A stretch of 64,000 nucleotides of DNA from Prochlorococcus sp. AG-424-P18 (lineage in GTDB: Bacteria > Cyanobacteriota > Cyanobacteriia > PCC-6307 > Cyanobiaceae): NCBI GenBank assembly GCA_003213235.1, contig QCNJ01000003.1, positions 1 to 64,000 on the forward strand. Reading direction: 5' to 3'. The notes beneath the pieces were generated by a model. The model was not told the DNA's origin. It searched no databases and was given only the letters and a program-made list of their open reading frames with translations. Position numbers and translations under genes: made by a program. Below are positions 52,998-61,808 of the stretch, one piece after another (the stretch's first letter is position 1; each line of letters starts with the position of its first letter).

Positions 52998-53014
52998 AGT
53001 TGGTAAATGTTTTT

Positions 53015-53632
53015 ATGACATACCCTGTTGATAATAATCTAACTAATGCTCAAAATGAGCTTTATGGATGGATCAAGGATTATATGCAAAACTTTAAGCA
53101 TAGTCCATCAATAAGGCAGATGATGGAAGCTATGGGATTGAAATCTCCTGCTCCTATTCAAAGTCGCTTAAAACATTTGCAAGAGAAAGGATATATTTCA
53201 TGGCAAGAAGGTAAGGCTAGAACAATGCAAATAGTTGATGAAATTGTTGAAGGGGTTCCGATTATGGGTTCAGTAGCAGCTGGAGGTTTAATTGAAACTT
53301 ATTCTGATATAAATGAAAATTTAGATATCTCTGATGTTCTAAAAAAGAAAAATGTTTTTGCTCTTACAGTTAATGGAGATTCAATGATAGATGCTTGTAT
53401 TGCTGATGGGGACATGGTTTTAATGGAGCCAATAAATGATTCATACTCTTTAAGAAACGGAACGATAGTTAGTGCGATGGTCCCAGGATTAGGAACAACT
53501 TTGAAATATTTTTTTAAAAGAGATGGAAAAATTTTTTTAGAAGCTGCTAATTCTAATTATGATCCAATTGAACTTAATTTAGATGAGGTTATTTTTCAAG
53601 GCAAACTTCTTGCCGTTTGGAGAAAAGTTTAA
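53015..53632 (+). CDS. lexA: LexA repressor
   Basis: LexA represses DNA-damage genes and is inactivated by RecA-stimulated self-cleavage. The N-terminal winged helix-turn-helix includes NAQNELYGWIKDYM, SPSIRQMMEAMGL and SRLKHLQEKGYI. The cleavage site Ala-Gly is in GSVAAGGLIE, the serine is in VNGDSMIDACIADGD, and the lysine is in TTLKYFFKRDG. All catalytic parts are present, so it can self-cleave, unlike some cyanobacterial LexA. An upstream TTG at 53000 is possible, but ATG 53015 (MTYPVDNN) leaves space for the operator. About 205 residues. Confidence 0.93.
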   Translation: MTYPVDNNLTNAQNELYGWIKDYMQNFKHSPSIRQMMEAMGLKSPAPIQSRLKHLQEKGYISWQEGKARTMQIVDEIVEGVPIMGSVAAGGLIETYSDINENLDISDVLKKKNVFALTVNGDSMIDACIADGDMVLMEPINDSYSLRNGTIVSAMVPGLGTTLKYFFKRDGKIFLEAANSNYDPIELNLDEVIFQGKLLAVWRKV

Positions 53633-53684: not shown

Positions 53685-54575
53685 TCATAAATTTGAAAGA
53701 TTTTCGATTATAAATCCATCTTTTTTAAATTTTTCTTTTAAGAGTTCTATTATCCTACTGACTGGGACATTAGCTGATTCAGTTGCATGCTCAAAAGTCG
53801 AGGAAGGTTTAGGATATAGATTTACAGAACCATATTTGTAACCTCTTATTGGATTATCAGGCATGGGCATTATATCTTTTGAGCTATTTTTAAATTCTTC
53901 TAAATCCCAAAAATATCCTCCACCGAAATCTACTCCGTATAAGTTAATTTTTTTAAAACCACTTAAATATGCTAAAAAAATTGCTGTTATTGTTGATGAA
54001 GTTGATTGGCATATAAATTTATTTTTTTTATTAGTTGATTTCTTTATAAAACTTTCAAGTTGTCTTTCTGTAACTATTGGCATCGAAGCCTCATAAAGAT
54101 ATTTATTTGATACTGAATAATTAGAGTCAAAAGGGAGATTATTGTATTTACATGTCAGATTTTTCATTATCAATAGGCCAATATATTTTGATCTTGTTAA
54201 ATAAATTTCTTTTATTTTCGGGATAATCTTTTTATGTTTTTCACCACACCATTCAGTAAAATAAAGATGATGATAAATGGGAAGAAGACATGTGAAATTT
54301 CCACCTATTACTAAATTATCATTATTTAGATTATCAATTGCATTAAGAGCAGAACGTCCTGAACCAATAAAGTTTATTTCTTCAGTGCCCTTATTAATCC
54401 GTAGTTCTTCTAGAAAATTTATAATTTCTTTGCGATCAACTCTATAAGTATTATTTGATTTATTGTGAAGCAAAAAATGTTTAATTTTTGATTTAAATCT
54501 ATTTTTTAAAAATATTGATAATGCATAAAATTCTTTCATTTTTAATTTAAGAGGAACGATATTCATCTTATTCAT
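53685..54575 (-). CDS. GT42/DUF115-like putative glycosyltransferase (sialyltransferase-like)
   Basis: This 296-residue protein has no strong name. INFIGSGRSALNAID (residues 68-81) resembles the GNGPSL nucleotide-binding start of GT42 sialyltransferases and DUF115/MptE proteins. STSSTITAIFLAYLSGFKKI followed by NLYGVDFGGGYFW (residues 191-223) resembles the later segment of the same fold. It diverges from the aldolase gene with a 72-bp gap. Given the adjacent CMP-sugar synthetase, I infer a transferase that uses a CMP-activated sugar acid. Composition is AT-rich, consistent with an island gene. Confidence 0.5.
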   Translation of the reverse strand: MNKMNIVPLKLKMKEFYALSIFLKNRFKSKIKHFLLHNKSNNTYRVDRKEIINFLEELRINKGTEEINFIGSGRSALNAIDNLNNDNLVIGGNFTCLLPIYHHLYFTEWCGEKHKKIIPKIKEIYLTRSKYIGLLIMKNLTCKYNNLPFDSNYSVSNKYLYEASMPIVTERQLESFIKKSTNKKNKFICQSTSSTITAIFLAYLSGFKKINLYGVDFGGGYFWDLEEFKNSSKDIMPMPDNPIRGYKYGSVNLYPKPSSTFEHATESANVPVSRIIELLKEKFKKDGFIIENLSNL

Positions 54576-54647
54576 TTGATGTTAATTAATAATTTTCTGA
54601 TTTTTATAAAAGTGCTAATGTTAATCTTAATATAAAAAGTTTATTTG

Positions 54648-56213
54648 ATGGGTGATTTCAAAGTAAAAATTCTTGATTGTACATTTAGAGATGGTGGCTA
54701 TTACACTAACTGGAATTTCGACATAAATATATTAAGTAAATATCTAAAGTTGCTGAATACAGGGGTATCTGACATTGTTGAAATAGGTTTAAGGACAATA
54801 AACTCTAATTCATATCTTGGACCATTCGCTTATTCCTCTATTGATTATTTTGATTTTTGCAAAGATTTTAAAAATATAATATTTAGTACACTTGTTAATT
54901 GGTCAGATGTAGAAGATTCTTTTAATGATTTTAAGAAAGTTTTTCCAGGAACTGAAAAAGATTTTATTAAAATTGTAAGAATTGTGATTAAATCTTTAGA
55001 AAATAAAGAAGTTAAAAATAATATAAATTATTTAAAGGATAAAGGTTATAAAGTTTGTTTGAATATTCAAAAATGCGATCAGTTAATAGATTTAGATGAA
55101 GACATTTTCAGAAAAAAAATAAGCAATCTTAATCCTGACATTTTATATTTGGCAGATACTAATGGATCCTTAAATCCATCGAATACAAAAATACTATTGG
55201 AAAAAATTAAATCTTTAACAAATCTTCCAATTGGTGTTCATATGCATAATAATCAAGGATTAGCTTATGCGAATACTCTCCAAGCAATAAATTCTGGGGT
55301 TTCATATGTTGATTCTACTTTTACTGGAATTGGTAGAGGTCCTGGTAATACTCAAACAGAATATTTGAGTTATTTCTTGAAGGATTTATCTATTGATCAA
55401 ATTTTAGATATTTCAGAATTGATAGAAGGTCACTTTTTACCATTAAAAAAGAAATTTCTTTGGGGAGAAAACTATTTTTATTTCTTATCTGGATTAAATA
55501 ATCAGTCTGCCTCTTTAATGCATGATTTAATAAATAATAGATCATATCCTAGTAAAAGCTTAATTAAAATAGCCAGAGCTGATGAAAAAGATGCAATTTC
55601 TTCCCTATTAAAAAGAAATAACATTAACCCTAATTATTTTATTAAGAAACCTGAAGCTGCAATAATGGCAAATGGGAGTAATTGGTTAATTGAAAAAAAA
55701 CAAATACTTGACTATCTAAAGAACAACAAGCTGAAGGTCATACATATAAATTTTCCAAATGATAAAAGTAAAATTCCTTATATTAATTTTTTCGCAAGTT
55801 GTGATCCAGTAAAAATAATGGCAGACTTAAATTTATATTTAGATATGAAAGATATTCCATTAGTTTGTCCAAGTAATCTTATAGAGGAGATGAAAATTGA
55901 CAAAGAATTAATTAATAAAGTTAATTATGATTGTTTTATTTCTGAAAAAAAATTAAATATTCAATCAAATAAATGTTTTATACCTCATGTCCAATCATTA
56001 TGTTTTTGTTTATCTTATATGTATGCTTCAGGTTACAGGAATATTATTATTATCGGAGCTCAAGGTTTTGAATTGAGCTCTAAAAATTTTGAGGCTATTG
56101 ACTGTCTTAATAAATTAAGAATTAATTATCCAGATCTTGAAATTACTTCCTTAAATCCAAATGCACTGGGATTACCATCTAAGAGTATATTTGAACTCTG
56201 TAATTTGGAATAA
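54648..56213 (+). CDS. DRE-TIM aldolase-like protein fused to a GT42/DUF115-like domain
   Basis: ATG 54648 gives 521 residues in two parts. Residues 1 to about 265 form a DRE-TIM metallolyase barrel like HMG-CoA lyase and 4-hydroxy-2-oxovalerate aldolase: ILDCTFRDGGYYTNWNF near residue 9, LADTNGSLNP, the metal His pair VHMHNNQGLAYANT near 198-200, and TGIGRGPGNTQTEYL. Residues 335-521 look like a separate Rossmann-type domain (IMANGSNWLIEKKQIL, CLSYMYASGYRNIIIIGAQG), recalling the divergent neighbour at 53685. It begins a run with kdsB-like and HAD genes. I infer aldol formation of a 2-keto-3-deoxy sugar acid; the substrate is unknown. Confidence 0.7.
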   Translation: MGDFKVKILDCTFRDGGYYTNWNFDINILSKYLKLLNTGVSDIVEIGLRTINSNSYLGPFAYSSIDYFDFCKDFKNIIFSTLVNWSDVEDSFNDFKKVFPGTEKDFIKIVRIVIKSLENKEVKNNINYLKDKGYKVCLNIQKCDQLIDLDEDIFRKKISNLNPDILYLADTNGSLNPSNTKILLEKIKSLTNLPIGVHMHNNQGLAYANTLQAINSGVSYVDSTFTGIGRGPGNTQTEYLSYFLKDLSIDQILDISELIEGHFLPLKKKFLWGENYFYFLSGLNNQSASLMHDLINNRSYPSKSLIKIARADEKDAISSLLKRNNINPNYFIKKPEAAIMANGSNWLIEKKQILDYLKNNKLKVIHINFPNDKSKIPYINFFASCDPVKIMADLNLYLDMKDIPLVCPSNLIEEMKIDKELINKVNYDCFISEKKLNIQSNKCFIPHVQSLCFCLSYMYASGYRNIIIIGAQGFELSSKNFEAIDCLNKLRINYPDLEITSLNPNALGLPSKSIFELCNLE

Positions 56214-56218
56214 AATAA

Positions 56219-56953
56219 ATGCCAAAAATTATCATTTTGATACCGGCTAGATATGAATCTTCAAGATTTTACGGTAAACCTTTGGCAATGATTAATGGGA
56301 AAGAGATGCTTATTAGGGTTTTAGAAAGATCAACATTCAAATATGAAGTTTACGCAGTAATTAATAATAATTTAATTGGTGAGGTTGTTAAAAGAAATGG
56401 TTTTAAATATATAATGGTAGAAGAAGATTGTAAAACTGGTACTGACAGGATAGGATTAGCCCTCGATAAGATTTCAATAAATGAAGATGATATTTTGGTT
56501 AATGTTCAGGGAGATGAACCAATGGTTTCTCCCTGGATGATAGAAAAAGTTATAGAAATGAAAAAAAGATTCCCTGATAGTGTGGTTAATGCTTTTTCAA
56601 GCATAAACTCTGAAAAAGAGTTTGAATCTAAAGCTTCGATTAAAATGATTATAAATAAGAATTCAGATTTACTCTATGCAAGTAGATCAACTATTCCTTC
56701 AACAAAAAAAACAAATAATTTTTCATTAGCTGTAAAGCAAGTTTGTATTTATGCATTTAGTCCAAAACATTTAAGGACTTTTATTGATACTGAAAGAGGA
56801 AAAATTGAATGTAGTGAGGATATTGAGATTTTAAGATTTATAGAAAATTCTATTTGTTCGGTAAAAATGGTTGATTTAGGAAATATAAATTTAAAGGCTG
56901 TCGATTATAAAGAAGATATTTTATTAGTTGAAAAGCTTCTTGATGAAGAATAA
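56219..56953 (+). CDS. kdsB: CMP-sugar acid cytidylyltransferase, KdsB-like
   Basis: This 244-residue protein of the KdsB (CMP-Kdo synthetase) family has IPARYESSRFYGKPLAMI at the N-terminus, CKTGTDRIGLAL, VNVQGDEPMVSP and a C-terminal VDYKEDILLVE that replaces the common VDTPEDL. The canonical PGKPL is here YGKPL. It activates a 3-deoxy-ulosonic acid with CTP, but whether that is Kdo or another acid cannot be told. The gene lies 5 bp after the aldolase fusion and overlaps the HAD gene by one base. Confidence 0.85.
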   Translation: MPKIIILIPARYESSRFYGKPLAMINGKEMLIRVLERSTFKYEVYAVINNNLIGEVVKRNGFKYIMVEEDCKTGTDRIGLALDKISINEDDILVNVQGDEPMVSPWMIEKVIEMKKRFPDSVVNAFSSINSEKEFESKASIKMIINKNSDLLYASRSTIPSTKKTNNFSLAVKQVCIYAFSPKHLRTFIDTERGKIECSEDIEILRFIENSICSVKMVDLGNINLKAVDYKEDILLVEKLLDEE

Positions 56954-57624
56954 TGGAAAAAAAAATAAACATAATTTTTGATTTTGATGGAGTAATTCTT
57001 AATTCAAATAAGATTAAGACATTAGCTTTTAAAACTATTTCAAAAGAATTTGGATCAGAAAAATCTAATCATTTGGTGAACTACCATTTAAAAAACGGGG
57101 GTATAAGTAGATTTGAAAAGATAAGCTGGTTTGTGAAAAATATTTTAAAGATTGAAAATGAACACTTAATAAATAAATTAATATATGATTATGGAGTAGA
57201 GGTTAAGAAATCACTTTTTGAGTGCGAATTTAGAACTAATTTAACATCACTAAGAAAAAAACTGGAGGGTACATTTTGGTCAATTGCTAGTGGAGGCTTA
57301 GAAGAAGAAATTAAAAATTTCTTAATAAAAAAATCTTTTATTCATTATTTCGAAAATGGAGTTTATGGATCCCCAACTCCAAAAATTGAGATAGTTGAAA
57401 ATATTAAGTTAAGTTCTAAATCAAATAATAATATTTGGTTTTTAATTGGAGATAGCATTTATGATTATGAGTGTGCTCGAGAATATGAAATGAATTTTAT
57501 ATTGGCTACTGATTGGTCAGAGATTAAAAATCCATGTAAATTTGCTAAAGAAAATAATATAGAGTATATATCCGGTATAGAAGAGTTAGATTTGGAATTT
57601 TTAAATAGTAAAAAATTTATTTAG
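56953..57624 (+). CDS. HAD-superfamily phosphatase
   Basis: The 223-residue protein has the four HAD motifs: FDFDGVILNS (Asp10, Asp12), SIASGG, Lys in TPKIEIV, and IGDSIYDYECA. A helical cap between motifs I and II (residues 20-95) marks it as subfamily I with a cap, unlike the capless KdsC. Its start codon overlaps the kdsB-like stop (TAATG). By position it probably dephosphorylates the sugar-acid phosphate before CMP activation. Confidence 0.82.
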   Translation: MEKKINIIFDFDGVILNSNKIKTLAFKTISKEFGSEKSNHLVNYHLKNGGISRFEKISWFVKNILKIENEHLINKLIYDYGVEVKKSLFECEFRTNLTSLRKKLEGTFWSIASGGLEEEIKNFLIKKSFIHYFENGVYGSPTPKIEIVENIKLSSKSNNNIWFLIGDSIYDYECAREYEMNFILATDWSEIKNPCKFAKENNIEYISGIEELDLEFLNSKKFI

Positions 57625-57625
57625 T

Positions 57626-58351
57626 TCATATTATATTTTTCAATATTGAAGGTAACTTTTTTAAAAAAACAATAATGCCTTTCAAAAATTCTTTTAAAAG
57701 AAATTTAATCACAAAAAACTTTCCATCAATTCCAGGTTCAATCCATCTGGCTAAATTTCTATTGGATGTTAGTAAATTTAAAACTAATGTATATCTTTCA
57801 TCTTCATTATTACTTTTGTAAGAATGTCTGGTTTTTCCTTCTAGTCTGGAAAATGCAAGGTATCTATTTTCTCTCCAATCTACTTGCTTAGAAGGGATTG
57901 ATTCTTTTTTTTTGTAAAGAAAAGTACCTATATTTTTTTTTGGAGAAAGATAAATAACTACACTTAATAATTTTTCAGCAGAGTCATCATGTATATGATA
58001 AGTTCCTTTTTTTACAGTTTTACTTAATTGGAATGAAAATGAATTATAAAGATGAAATTTTCTTGGGGCAAGTTTTTTAAGGTGATCTAACAATTTATCC
58101 TCGTATTTTTTATAAAAATCAATTAACTCTTTATTACTTAGAATAGATGATCCCATTGTGACTTTTAAATCAGGGACAGCAATTCTTGCTTGATTATATT
58201 CAACGCTAAAACCATATTCATTTTTTGAATTATTTATTAAATTATTAATTCTAGATTTTAATTTTCCAAAATCTTCTTTATCTAAAAAATTATCTTCAAC
58301 AATATGTTTAAAAGGCTCACTAAAAATCATTAAATTTTTATTTGATTCCAT
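57626..58351 (-). CDS. 2-oxoglutarate/Fe(II)-dependent oxygenase-like protein
   Basis: The 241-residue protein has a jelly-roll metal motif: THYH-type segment TYHIHDDSAEKLLSVVIYLS with His121 and Asp123, a second His at RHSYKS (His176), and an Arg in RYTLVLNLL (Arg186) that would bind 2-oxoglutarate. This is the pattern of prolyl-4-hydroxylase-like oxygenases. The last 40 residues are hydrophobic and lysine-rich (FFVIKFLLKEFLKGIIVFL), perhaps a membrane-associated tail. It is convergent with the HAD gene, separated by one base. The substrate is unknown. Confidence 0.65.
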   Translation of the reverse strand: MESNKNLMIFSEPFKHIVEDNFLDKEDFGKLKSRINNLINNSKNEYGFSVEYNQARIAVPDLKVTMGSSILSNKELIDFYKKYEDKLLDHLKKLAPRKFHLYNSFSFQLSKTVKKGTYHIHDDSAEKLLSVVIYLSPKKNIGTFLYKKKESIPSKQVDWRENRYLAFSRLEGKTRHSYKSNNEDERYTLVLNLLTSNRNLARWIEPGIDGKFFVIKFLLKEFLKGIIVFLKKLPSILKNII

Positions 58352-60695: not shown

Positions 60696-61808
60696 TTGAA
60701 GTTTGAAGTGTCCCTTCTTGTGCTAAAAAAGAATTTAATAGGTTTTGTTTATTTTTTATTGTTTTCAATTCCTTTTTTGATTGGTGCAATTTGGCAATTT
60801 AGAGCGAACAATCCTTTCATTTCTAAATTTCCGGTTATTGACTCACTAGTAAATTTATCGGGCTCATCTGGAATTTATAAGATCTTCTTTACTCTATTTC
60901 TCATAAGTCTCCCATTTTTATTAATAACTACTTTAGAAATATTTAGGTCTAACGAAAATTTTAAAAACAGATTATTTTCAACAAGTTTAGGAAGAATGTA
61001 TTTCTCCAAAGGTCATAAATTTGCAGATATTTGGTATTTTTCTTTTGAACTTATTTTTGCTAAATTTCCCAAGATACTTACCTTTTTAACTCTAGGAGTG
61101 GCAATTTTCAATTCAAAGGTCTCAACTTGGTTCACTAATTTTTATTCAAGTATTCTTAAAATACCCTCATCGCAAATAATAGCCCTCATAATTTTTATAA
61201 TTGCAATTTTAATTTTAAACTTAATATCTTATTTAAAACATAGGATTGTTCATACAGTTCCTTTCTTTTGGGATCTTCATGAGCTTCATCATTCTCCCAC
61301 GGAAATGACAATATTATCAAGAGAACGGAAGACACCATTTGAAGGTGCTTTCCTTGTTGTTTTAGGATTGCCATTTGAAGCTGTATGCTCCTTACTTATT
61401 GCTCATTATTTAAAAGAGGGTTTTGTATTGCCATTAATTATTTATATTTTATATTTTTGCCTTGACAACATTCATACAACAGTAGGGCATTCTTCATTTA
61501 AGTTGGTTTATCCAAAGCCTTTCAACTATATATTGATGAGTCCTTCTCTTCATTGGATACATCATTCTAGTAATCCGAAACACTTCAGGAGTAATTTTGG
61601 AAATACATTAAGTATCTGGGATAGAGTTTTTGATACATATTTGGATGAAACACACCTTAAAGAGATAAAAAGTTATGGCTTCAAAAATAGTGAGTATAAC
61701 AAACATCATCCATTTTACTCAGTTATGTTTTTGCCAATTATAAAAATGAAAAAAAGATTAGTTAGAATGAGTAAGAAGAGATTAAGAAAAAAAGTTATTT
61801 ACCAATAA
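60696..61808 (+). CDS. Fatty acid hydroxylase / sterol desaturase superfamily membrane protein
   Basis: This 370-residue membrane di-iron protein has about six hydrophobic segments. The His clusters are in order: HRIVHTVPFFWDLHELHHS near residue 187, HTTVGHSSF near 263 and LHWIHHSSNPKHFRSNFG near 288. Together they form the eight-His pattern of this superfamily. A sterol substrate is unlikely in Prochlorococcus; hydroxylation of a fatty acid or carotenoid-like lipid is more plausible. The start is TTG 60696 (KFEVSLLVLKKN). Confidence 0.82.
   Translation: MKFEVSLLVLKKNLIGFVYFLLFSIPFLIGAIWQFRANNPFISKFPVIDSLVNLSGSSGIYKIFFTLFLISLPFLLITTLEIFRSNENFKNRLFSTSLGRMYFSKGHKFADIWYFSFELIFAKFPKILTFLTLGVAIFNSKVSTWFTNFYSSILKIPSSQIIALIIFIIAILILNLISYLKHRIVHTVPFFWDLHELHHSPTEMTILSRERKTPFEGAFLVVLGLPFEAVCSLLIAHYLKEGFVLPLIIYILYFCLDNIHTTVGHSSFKLVYPKPFNYILMSPSLHWIHHSSNPKHFRSNFGNTLSIWDRVFDTYLDETHLKEIKSYGFKNSEYNKHHPFYSVMFLPIIKMKKRLVRMSKKRLRKKVIYQ

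Follow-up and report, generated by a model that had tools for sequence, protein, structure and literature searches.

We have analysed a window of 64,000 nucleotides from Prochlorococcus sp. AG-424-P18 (contig QCNJ01000003.1, positions 1 to 64,000 of the forward strand), the genome of which (G000; 1.48 Mb in 45 contigs, 89% complete) carries a three-gene cassette that, judging from sequence, probably encodes a pyruvate-dependent aldolase route to a cytidine monophosphate (CMP)-activated 3-deoxy-2-ulosonic acid. The initial annotation had described three co-directional, touching genes for a DRE-TIM aldolase fusion, a KdsB-like cytidylyltransferase and a HAD phosphatase, and this is borne out both by the coordinates and by matches to PF00682, PF02348 and PF13419, respectively. 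The cassette spans 54645-57624, with a gap of 5 bp between the first two genes and an overlap of 1 bp between the second and the third:

54645-56213, plus strand: two-domain protein (ALD), with a TTG start and a likelier ATG start at 54648; residues 6-312 correspond to a DRE-TIM (HMGL-like) aldolase domain with R15, D16, H199 and H201, and residues ~335-522 to a domain of GT42/MptE/SteA fold
56219-56953, plus strand: KdsB-like CMP-ulosonate cytidylyltransferase of a Q-x-C subgroup (PF02348, NF003952 and motif)
56953-57624, plus strand: putative HAD-IA phosphatase (PF13419, 3e-13; D10-x-D12; G-x-S-R at 50-53)

KdsA and NeuB are the standard entry routes to CMP-ulosonic acids. In the route proposed here, the aldolase domain of ALD would add a metal-bound pyruvate enolate to a sugar aldehyde that is probably phosphorylated; this would yield the phosphate of a 2-keto-3-deoxy sugar acid, a step for which KdsA or NeuB uses phosphoenolpyruvate (PEP). 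The HAD protein would take the phosphate off this product, the KdsB-like enzyme (NeuA-type in some relatives) would form the CMP-sugar, and a GT42-like protein, either the fused C-terminal domain of ALD or the product of the neighbouring gene ST, would transfer the sugar. We favour this reading because the aldolase and the CMP-transferase are tightly linked, because the aldolase switches between partner families, because there are genomes with the cassette and without a kdsA match, because HpaI or KdsA stands beside KdsB elsewhere, because exchange is seen at one and the same locus, and because the nearest folds are those of the 4-hydroxy-2-oxovalerate pyruvate aldolases. We judge it the most economical one, although we infer the use of pyruvate, the phosphorylated aldehyde, the order of the steps, the identity of the product and the role of the C-terminal domain. 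No description of the cassette was found in a literature search of partial coverage, judged from titles and abstract openings.

Residues 6-261 of ALD match the HMGL-like family PF00682 (7e-25). A profile of 38 ALD relatives, when compared with the Protein Data Bank (PDB), retrieved 3dxi first (2e-76), followed by the 4-hydroxy-2-oxovalerate aldolases 8ih7, 1nvm and 4lrs; for an AlphaFold2 model of ALD (mean pLDDT 86.9, pTM 0.75), the ranking by fold runs from 3dxi (Z 35.0) through DmpG (1nvm, 29.6) and 8ih7 (29.1) to the homocitrate synthases (24.8 or less). ALD belongs to the same aldolase subfamily as 3dxi, which is the N-terminal domain of a putative aldolase from Bacteroides vulgatus (BVU_2661); the title of that entry names no function, and the structure covers the N-terminal domain alone. 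The metal ligands that were to be sought on a modelled aldolase domain are conserved almost throughout a set of 84 sequences, with H199 and H201 in 84 of 84, R15 in 81 of 81 filled positions and D16 in 80 of 81. These R-D and H-x-H signatures correspond to what we take to be the metal- and substrate-binding residues and the catalytic arginine of DmpG. Fold and signatures are common to ALD and the 4-hydroxy-2-oxovalerate aldolases DmpG, BphI and MhpE, whereas ALD differs from these in its GGYYNNWDF motif, in a tyrosine at the position of DmpG H21, in its scores below the family cut-offs (TIGR03217, 62.7 versus 286 bits; NF006049, 72.8 versus 229 bits), and in having a fused domain of GT42/MptE fold where they have a partner aldehyde dehydrogenase. 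For none of the 25 NCBIfam models shown (28 matched) does ALD reach the cut-off. ALD may act like a 4-hydroxy-2-oxovalerate aldolase, though it lies outside that family's cut-offs.

Since ALD also shares its superfamily with LeuA and NifV, and weakly matches isopropylmalate and homocitrate synthase models, it could alternatively be a Claisen-type synthase that joins acetyl-CoA to a 2-oxo acid, or else a retro-aldol lyase. We give this very little credence: 3dxi and the HOA aldolases are closest to ALD by both sequence and fold, ahead of LeuA and NifV, and we know of no Claisen product that represents a substrate type of KdsB or NeuA.

The KdsB-like protein of the window matches PF02348 (4e-30) and lies above the cut-off of NF003952 (200.7 versus 193 bits), but below that of the TIGR00466 equivalog model (122.2 versus 155.2 bits). 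Its cytidylyltransferase core (IPAR, S, R, GTDR and QGDEP) is invariant in 16 aligned cassette KdsBs, including its own sequence, and aligns with solved KdsBs. The latter have H-x-G (histidine in 5 of 5 aligned) at a site where the window protein has Q-x-C. The Q-x-C pattern recurs in 45 of 47 KdsB open reading frames (ORFs) of the 80 loci described below, the other two fitting neither pattern, and 28 KdsB matches fetched from cassette-bearing genomes divide into 12 with H-x-G, 12 with Q-x-C and four with neither. In the HAD family, D10, D12, G50 and R53 are present in 61 of 61 sequences, and S52 in 60. The pathway to 3-deoxy-D-manno-octulosonic acid (Kdo), KdsA-KdsC-KdsB, likewise combines a condensing enzyme, a HAD phosphatase and a CMP-transferase, the last of which is homologous to the cassette protein. 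In contrast to that pathway, the cassette has an unrelated DRE-TIM aldolase where the PEP-dependent KdsA would stand, its HAD protein matches class IA/HAD_2 models and not KdsC, and its KdsB carries Q-x-C instead of H-x-G. Two apparent HAD-CMP-transferase fusions in a first ORF list (L063 and L096) were rejected: the HAD part alone was matched, and a six-frame test puts the two genes on different ORFs in both loci.

A scan of named genomes for ALD relatives gave at least 563 matches, of which the best-scoring 80 loci were analysed, with the presence of ALD, CMP-transferase and HAD judged by the six-frame test; the linkage figures describe close relatives of ALD, and some genomes contribute two loci. 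ALD is present in 80 of 80. Where at least 2 kb of downstream sequence is available (n = 71), 69 loci have a CMP-transferase no farther than 5 kb away, counting both sides and both strands, 58 have a HAD gene and 57 have both. Tight same-strand runs (an ALD ORF of more than 400 aa and a following ORF, n = 75) include a CMP-transferase in 66 cases and a HAD gene in 53; the ALDs of L068 and L078, which simple ORF calling missed, are left out of these 75 and of the tree below. The CMP-transferase is the immediate neighbour of ALD in 55 of the 75, compared with 33 of 581 other ORFs of at least 200 aa in the same loci. Cassette relatives span the Gammaproteobacteria, Pelagibacteraceae, Bacillota, Campylobacterota, Spirochaetes and cyanobacteria; linkage of the three genes, on the conservation of which the initial annotation had staked its proposal, is therefore found across phyla. 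On a Leisingera plasmid, the public annotation gives an aldolase catalytic domain-containing protein, a 3-deoxy-manno-octulosonate cytidylyltransferase and a HAD family hydrolase. Two ALD-KdsB-HAD cassettes lie ~16 kb apart on one scaffold of Halomonas alkaliantarctica (L047 and L057), and in Marinobacter (L044, L045, L051 and L071) ALD cassettes lie near genes that by eye resemble those of the lipopolysaccharide (LPS) core (kinase-like and heptosyltransferase-like).

Within the genus (a set of 151 genomes, G000 included), ALD relatives occur in seven genomes, near full length in G000, G143, G047, G016 and G073, and as the aldolase part in G095 and G102. A different, HOA-like aldolase is present in G090, and the remaining matches, which cover approximately residues 155-242 of ORFs mostly near 550 aa, look like LeuA. 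The gene order ALD-KdsB-HAD is the same in G000, G047, G016 and G073; a 3.1-kb contig of G143 carries ALD-KdsB with no HAD gene on it, and G102 has another PF02348 gene in the place of KdsB. The same ALD stretch is found inverted at both ends of that G143 contig (C51; L024, 1-672 and 1626-3140), probably through amplification or an assembly chimera. In the phylum set (386 genomes, G000 included), a threshold of 1e-60 yields ALD relatives in 19 genomes.

The CMP-transferase partners were labelled KdsB or NeuA with small profiles built for this analysis, as PF02348 covers both types without separating them; 10 of 10 NeuA-labelled genes tested are over the PF02348 cut-off, and seven of these are ALD partners in the tree. 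In this tree, a quick one of 84 ALDs in which 30 of the 81 forks are left open and many rows carry composition warnings, the partner is KdsB in 49 rows, NeuA in 26 and not called in nine. Partner type changes between KdsB and NeuA 13 times, at least six of these changes being forced by the starred branches, whereas the shuffled mean is ~22. The putative aldolase is the constant part of the cassette, with a partner taken from either of two families whose members activate 3-deoxy-2-ulosonic acids. A NeuA-type CMP-transferase also connects the cassette with the NeuB-NeuA pathways to the nonulosonates (sialic, legionaminic and pseudaminic acid); however, the PEP-dependent NeuB lies outside the cassette, and some cassette genomes have no clear NeuB.

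The initial annotation had seen no KdsA here. The genome gives the same picture: no TIGR01362 (kdsA) match was found in the G000 assembly, 89% complete as it is, nor in the other ALD-KdsB genomes of the genus, G016 (83% complete), G047 (67%), G073 (96%) and G143 (63%), and a kdsA-based set elsewhere that might have served this KdsB was thus not seen. In the genus as a whole, kdsA is over its cut-off in 16 of 151 genomes. By contrast, a NeuB gene lies at G000:C3:78625-79353, ~21 kb past the cassette, in its own legionaminate-type cluster outside the window; it was identified by Pfam in the next 20 kb (G000:C3:64001-84000, L031), together with NeuC-like epimerase, aminotransferase and acetyltransferase genes named by eye. 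NeuB occurs in 68 of 151 genus genomes, including G000, G016, G047 and G073, and, therefore, it cannot be dismissed by absence within the genus. On another contig (L032), G000 has a PF02348 gene accompanied by Gfo/Idh-, aminotransferase-, hydrolase- and SDR-like genes.

These data bear on a second alternative, namely, that the KdsB-like enzyme activates a NeuB product (a nonulosonate) or Kdo from elsewhere, ALD and HAD being unrelated members of the same polysaccharide island. It is favoured by the fact that no CMP-transferase was read beside the NeuB set of G000 (L031). Moreover, of the seven genus genomes with an ALD relative six carry NeuB, a gene seen in 68 of 151 overall, and 20 named genomes that bear an ALD relative (a set that may overlap the genus genomes, e.g. 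L106 and G073) include 14 with kdsA; these frequencies count against the pyruvate route too, as does G357, which carries a NeuA-type cassette as well as kdsA. A NeuB match was found in 13 of the 20. The alternative is nevertheless distinctly unlikely, as the tight linkage extends across phyla, the NeuB gene sets of G016 and G047 contain a NeuA-type gene (PF02348) of their own, and the 12 canonical H-x-G KdsBs from cassette genomes are genes apart from the cassette KdsB. Furthermore, two genomes have the cassette with no kdsA over the cut-off and no clear NeuB. In the cyanobacterium G273 (5.2 Mb, two contigs, 99% complete; ALD-NeuA-HAD), the same ORF gives 122 bits for kdsA and the sole NeuB match (31 bits); in Rossellomorea aquimaris (G151, completeness not given; ALD-KdsB-HAD), one ORF at C1:104 kb reaches 127 bits against a kdsA cut-off of 314, and its NeuB score of 32 formally exceeds the Pfam cut-off of 22. 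We take both ORFs for DAHP synthase and not KdsA or NeuB. Of two further ALD-KdsB-HAD genomes, G333 (one contig, 100% complete) has no kdsA match and two NeuB genes, and G527 (one contig) has neither kdsA nor NeuB over the cut-off; the latter is not a clean case, because genes of the DAHP-synthase family and of NeuA type lie 7-10 kb from its cassette. That polysaccharide island of G527 (L225, 3037-8496) contains DAHP-synthase-family, NeuA-type and shikimate-dehydrogenase substrate domain genes, perhaps another odd CMP-ulosonate set.

The interpretation of a pyruvate aldolase as the condensing step gains support from what stands beside KdsB in other genomes. KdsB-like genes occur in 36 of 151 genus genomes, with the five that have ALD scoring 315-380 bits and the next 252. 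In 14 of the 36, KdsA and KdsB are no more than 5 kb apart (by coordinates; G074 is just under the kdsA cut-off). An HpcH/HpaI ORF adjoins KdsB in five Prochlorococcus genomes (G130, G138, G098, G144 and G127), and lies 2.3 kb from it in G044 and 1.5 kb in G142; such ORFs were sought solely in the fetched regions (30 short loci and 13 longer regions), and they are confirmed by Pfam except that of G138, which was identified with an in-house profile (89 bits). The HpcH/HpaI ORFs beside or near KdsB are:

L189, 8755-9498
L190, 10095-10826
L191, 4511-5278
L192, 10668-11420
L193, 1704-2459
L198, 14390-15142
L233, 9163-9939

Among named models, those for HpaI, GarL and KDR aldolase, all of them pyruvate aldolases that act on 2-keto-3-deoxy acids, gave the best fits to the three HpaI ORFs compared, with scores below the cut-offs. 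After the KdsB gene of G127 come, on the opposite strand, genes for HpaI, a HAD protein and a SIS-domain protein; the HAD protein encoded there is a homologue of the window HAD (29% identity, 2e-13). The HpcH/HpaI sets, which resemble the cassette in the KdsB neighbour and, in G127, in the HAD family but belong to PF03328 as opposed to PF00682, are possibly a second alternative CMP-ulosonate route in Prochlorococcus. By eye, KdsB-like, 3-dehydroquinate-synthase-like and SDR-like genes occur together in five Prochlorococcus genomes (L199, 1-2465; L200, 8303-10918; L183; L184; L188). An LdpA-like Fe-S protein recurs beside aldolase/KdsB sets (L227, 6952-8010; L189, 11135-12166; L110, 1701-2729, LdpA_C), with similar starts seen by eye in L190 (7430-8461) and L218 (422-1495).

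HpaI also occurs at cassette loci. It adjoins ALD in L046, L088 and L201 and is near it in L110, and it stands beside more distant ALD relatives from another family of the same phylum (L208 and L210), as would be expected if another enzyme, such as HpaI, made the sugar acid and ALD were a tailoring aldolase that lengthens or shortens its chain. This third alternative is unlikely: in the clustering of neighbours HpaI is found in 3 of 78 loci, six HpaI-KdsB regions (L189-L193 and L198) have no ALD, and there is no HpaI in the 20 kb read around the cassettes of G273 and G151. The HOA-type aldolase of G090 (L030, 676-11251) belongs to a sugar cluster that, by eye, also has aldehyde-dehydrogenase-, thiamine pyrophosphate (TPP)-enzyme- and KdsC-like genes; L207, L208 and L210 hold an aldolase set related to this one, with a TPP-enzyme-like gene.

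The cassette, which borders lexA, argF and ftsH (names by eye) on the margin of a surface-polysaccharide island, is enclosed by two genes on the opposite strand:

53685-54575, minus strand: ST, putative GT42/MptE-like transferase (PF01973, 8e-4; 65% to residues 212-505 of a fused protein of G142)
57626-58351, minus strand: OXY, putative 2-oxoglutarate-Fe(II) oxygenase (PF13640, 7e-4, below cut-off; 63% over 210 aa to residues 8-217 of the same protein)

The start of ST lies ~70 bp upstream of ALD, and the end of OXY adjoins the HAD stop. In the other 150 genomes of the genus, ST has one strong relative, in G142, where a single gene of 509 aa, again next to relatives of these lexA, argF and ftsH genes, combines the counterparts of OXY (63%) and ST (65%). 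Homology to OXY runs up to residue 217 of the fusion and homology to ST begins at residue 212; in the window, the ALD-KdsB-HAD block stands between the two halves with no other gene between. The G142 fusion is accompanied by a KdsC-like HAD gene (named by eye; a hydrolase by Pfam), KdsA (326.7 bits, over the cut-off), a CBS-like gene, HpaI, two SDR-like genes and KdsB. The cassette behaves as a unit at a site where G142 has a Kdo-type set close by, insertion and loss being undecidable from two genomes. The lexA-argF-ftsH side (window 53000-53632; L028, L192, L194, L227, L228 and L233) is a recurrent border of variable glycan genes, an exchange hotspot, and a fatty-acid-hydroxylase-family gene in the window (60696-61808) has a 42% relative in the G142 island (L233, 5710-6801). 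As for OXY, the fused gene gave no oxygenase match at 0.01; haemagglutinin-like PDB matches at E 0.045 or worse were taken as chance, and a link to Kdo hydroxylases was dropped, with nothing supporting it.

The Rossmann-type domain that had been assigned to the C-terminal part of ALD is confirmed by modelling. As the barrel hid it in the fold lists for the full model, it was modelled alone, from the relative in L066 (pLDDT 96.1), and fits SteA, HPPK and GT42 at Z 10-12: in VIA-align, SteA scores 12.0, the archaeal MptE-type HPPK 11.9 and GT42 sialyltransferases (CstI and CstII among this family) 10.3-11.3. For CstII (1ro8_A), Z is 11.3 over 175 residues at 4.2 Å, so the GT42 fold is matched, with SteA and HPPK tied. 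Among the top 50 Foldseek matches listed, SteA (5e-5) and HPPK (1e-3) lead and there are no GT42 chains; the PDB and Pfam searches gave no GT42 sequence match for this domain, and the MptE-like similarity is weak and confined to 7 of 38 members. By its model, the domain falls into the fold group of both the pterin pyrophosphokinases and the CMP-sialic acid transferases. Comparison within the family shows N38 to be invariant and G13 to be nearly so. G102 has a free-standing gene for this domain (L029). The ST gene does diverge from the cassette, as the initial annotation had it, but its sialyltransferase-like label goes back to weak similarity: its single Pfam match, to the MptE-like family PF01973 (8e-4), is below the cut-off, and a PDB search gave no match. 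A relationship between ST and the C-terminal family of ALD found no support (hhalign probability 1.5%), and a separate GT42-like gene with a G-N-G-P-S motif was rejected as a general part of the cassette, since it lies within 50 bp of ALD in only 4 of 78 loci.

In addition to the NeuB and kdsA frequencies, a number of observations weigh against a pyruvate-aldolase route. Within ALD itself, the position of DmpG H21, presumably the catalytic base, is occupied by the first tyrosine of GGYYNNWDF (Tyr in 81 of 82 filled positions), and in the C-terminal domain the aspartate of a GFDGY motif, kept in 36 of 38 members, is glutamine in the window ALD and its nearest relative (2 of 38). The window and G143 ALDs pair on a very long stem (3.83 in a midpoint-rooted drawing), so that the argument reaches the window copy via gene order and conserved residues. 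No HAD gene was seen in any of 10 Pelagibacteraceae loci (one with just 0.9 kb downstream), nor in L074 and L099; two loci (L086 and L091) lack a CMP-transferase within 5 kb, and two others (L090 and L095) have one on the opposite strand at a distance of 1.9-4.5 kb. The aldolase-only relative of G095 has no KdsB beside it, and aldolase-only relatives occur in other contexts, such as a Priestia plasmid, near aromatic-degradation genes. Conversely, G077, G095, G025 and G051 have KdsB and a HAD-like gene with no aldolase labelled in the 20 kb read; together with the loci that combine KdsB with dehydroquinate-synthase-like and SDR-like genes, these indicate that not every KdsB locus fits the pattern. 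The pyruvate-aldolase route does not explain the HAD-less Pelagibacteraceae loci, the aldolase-only relatives elsewhere or the loci with HpaI beside ALD, where the reaction of ALD may be a different one.

One source (PMC4515613) describes the LPS of cyanobacteria as free of Kdo and heptose, which makes the identity of the cassette product in these genomes a testable question. Kdo and nonulosonates are listed among marine bacterial glycans (PMC3210612), and the Kps genes for a Kdo linker have a confined distribution in cyanobacteria (PMC4594306); the cassette is not treated in the available parts of these two sources.

In its broadest form, the proposal is that CMP-3-deoxy-2-ulosonic acids have a third, PEP-independent origin, with fusions of a DRE-TIM pyruvate aldolase and a GT42-fold domain making an undescribed acid in perhaps hundreds of species, and with KdsA, HpaI and DRE-TIM condensing cassettes being interchangeable at a hypervariable surface-glycan locus of marine picocyanobacteria; we regard the chances of this as evenly balanced. 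A cassette of wide distribution that takes over the condensing step would account for KdsB-like genes in kdsA-less genomes, give pyruvate-based access to rare sugar acids, and lead one to expect acidic surface sugars not yet seen in marine bacteria.

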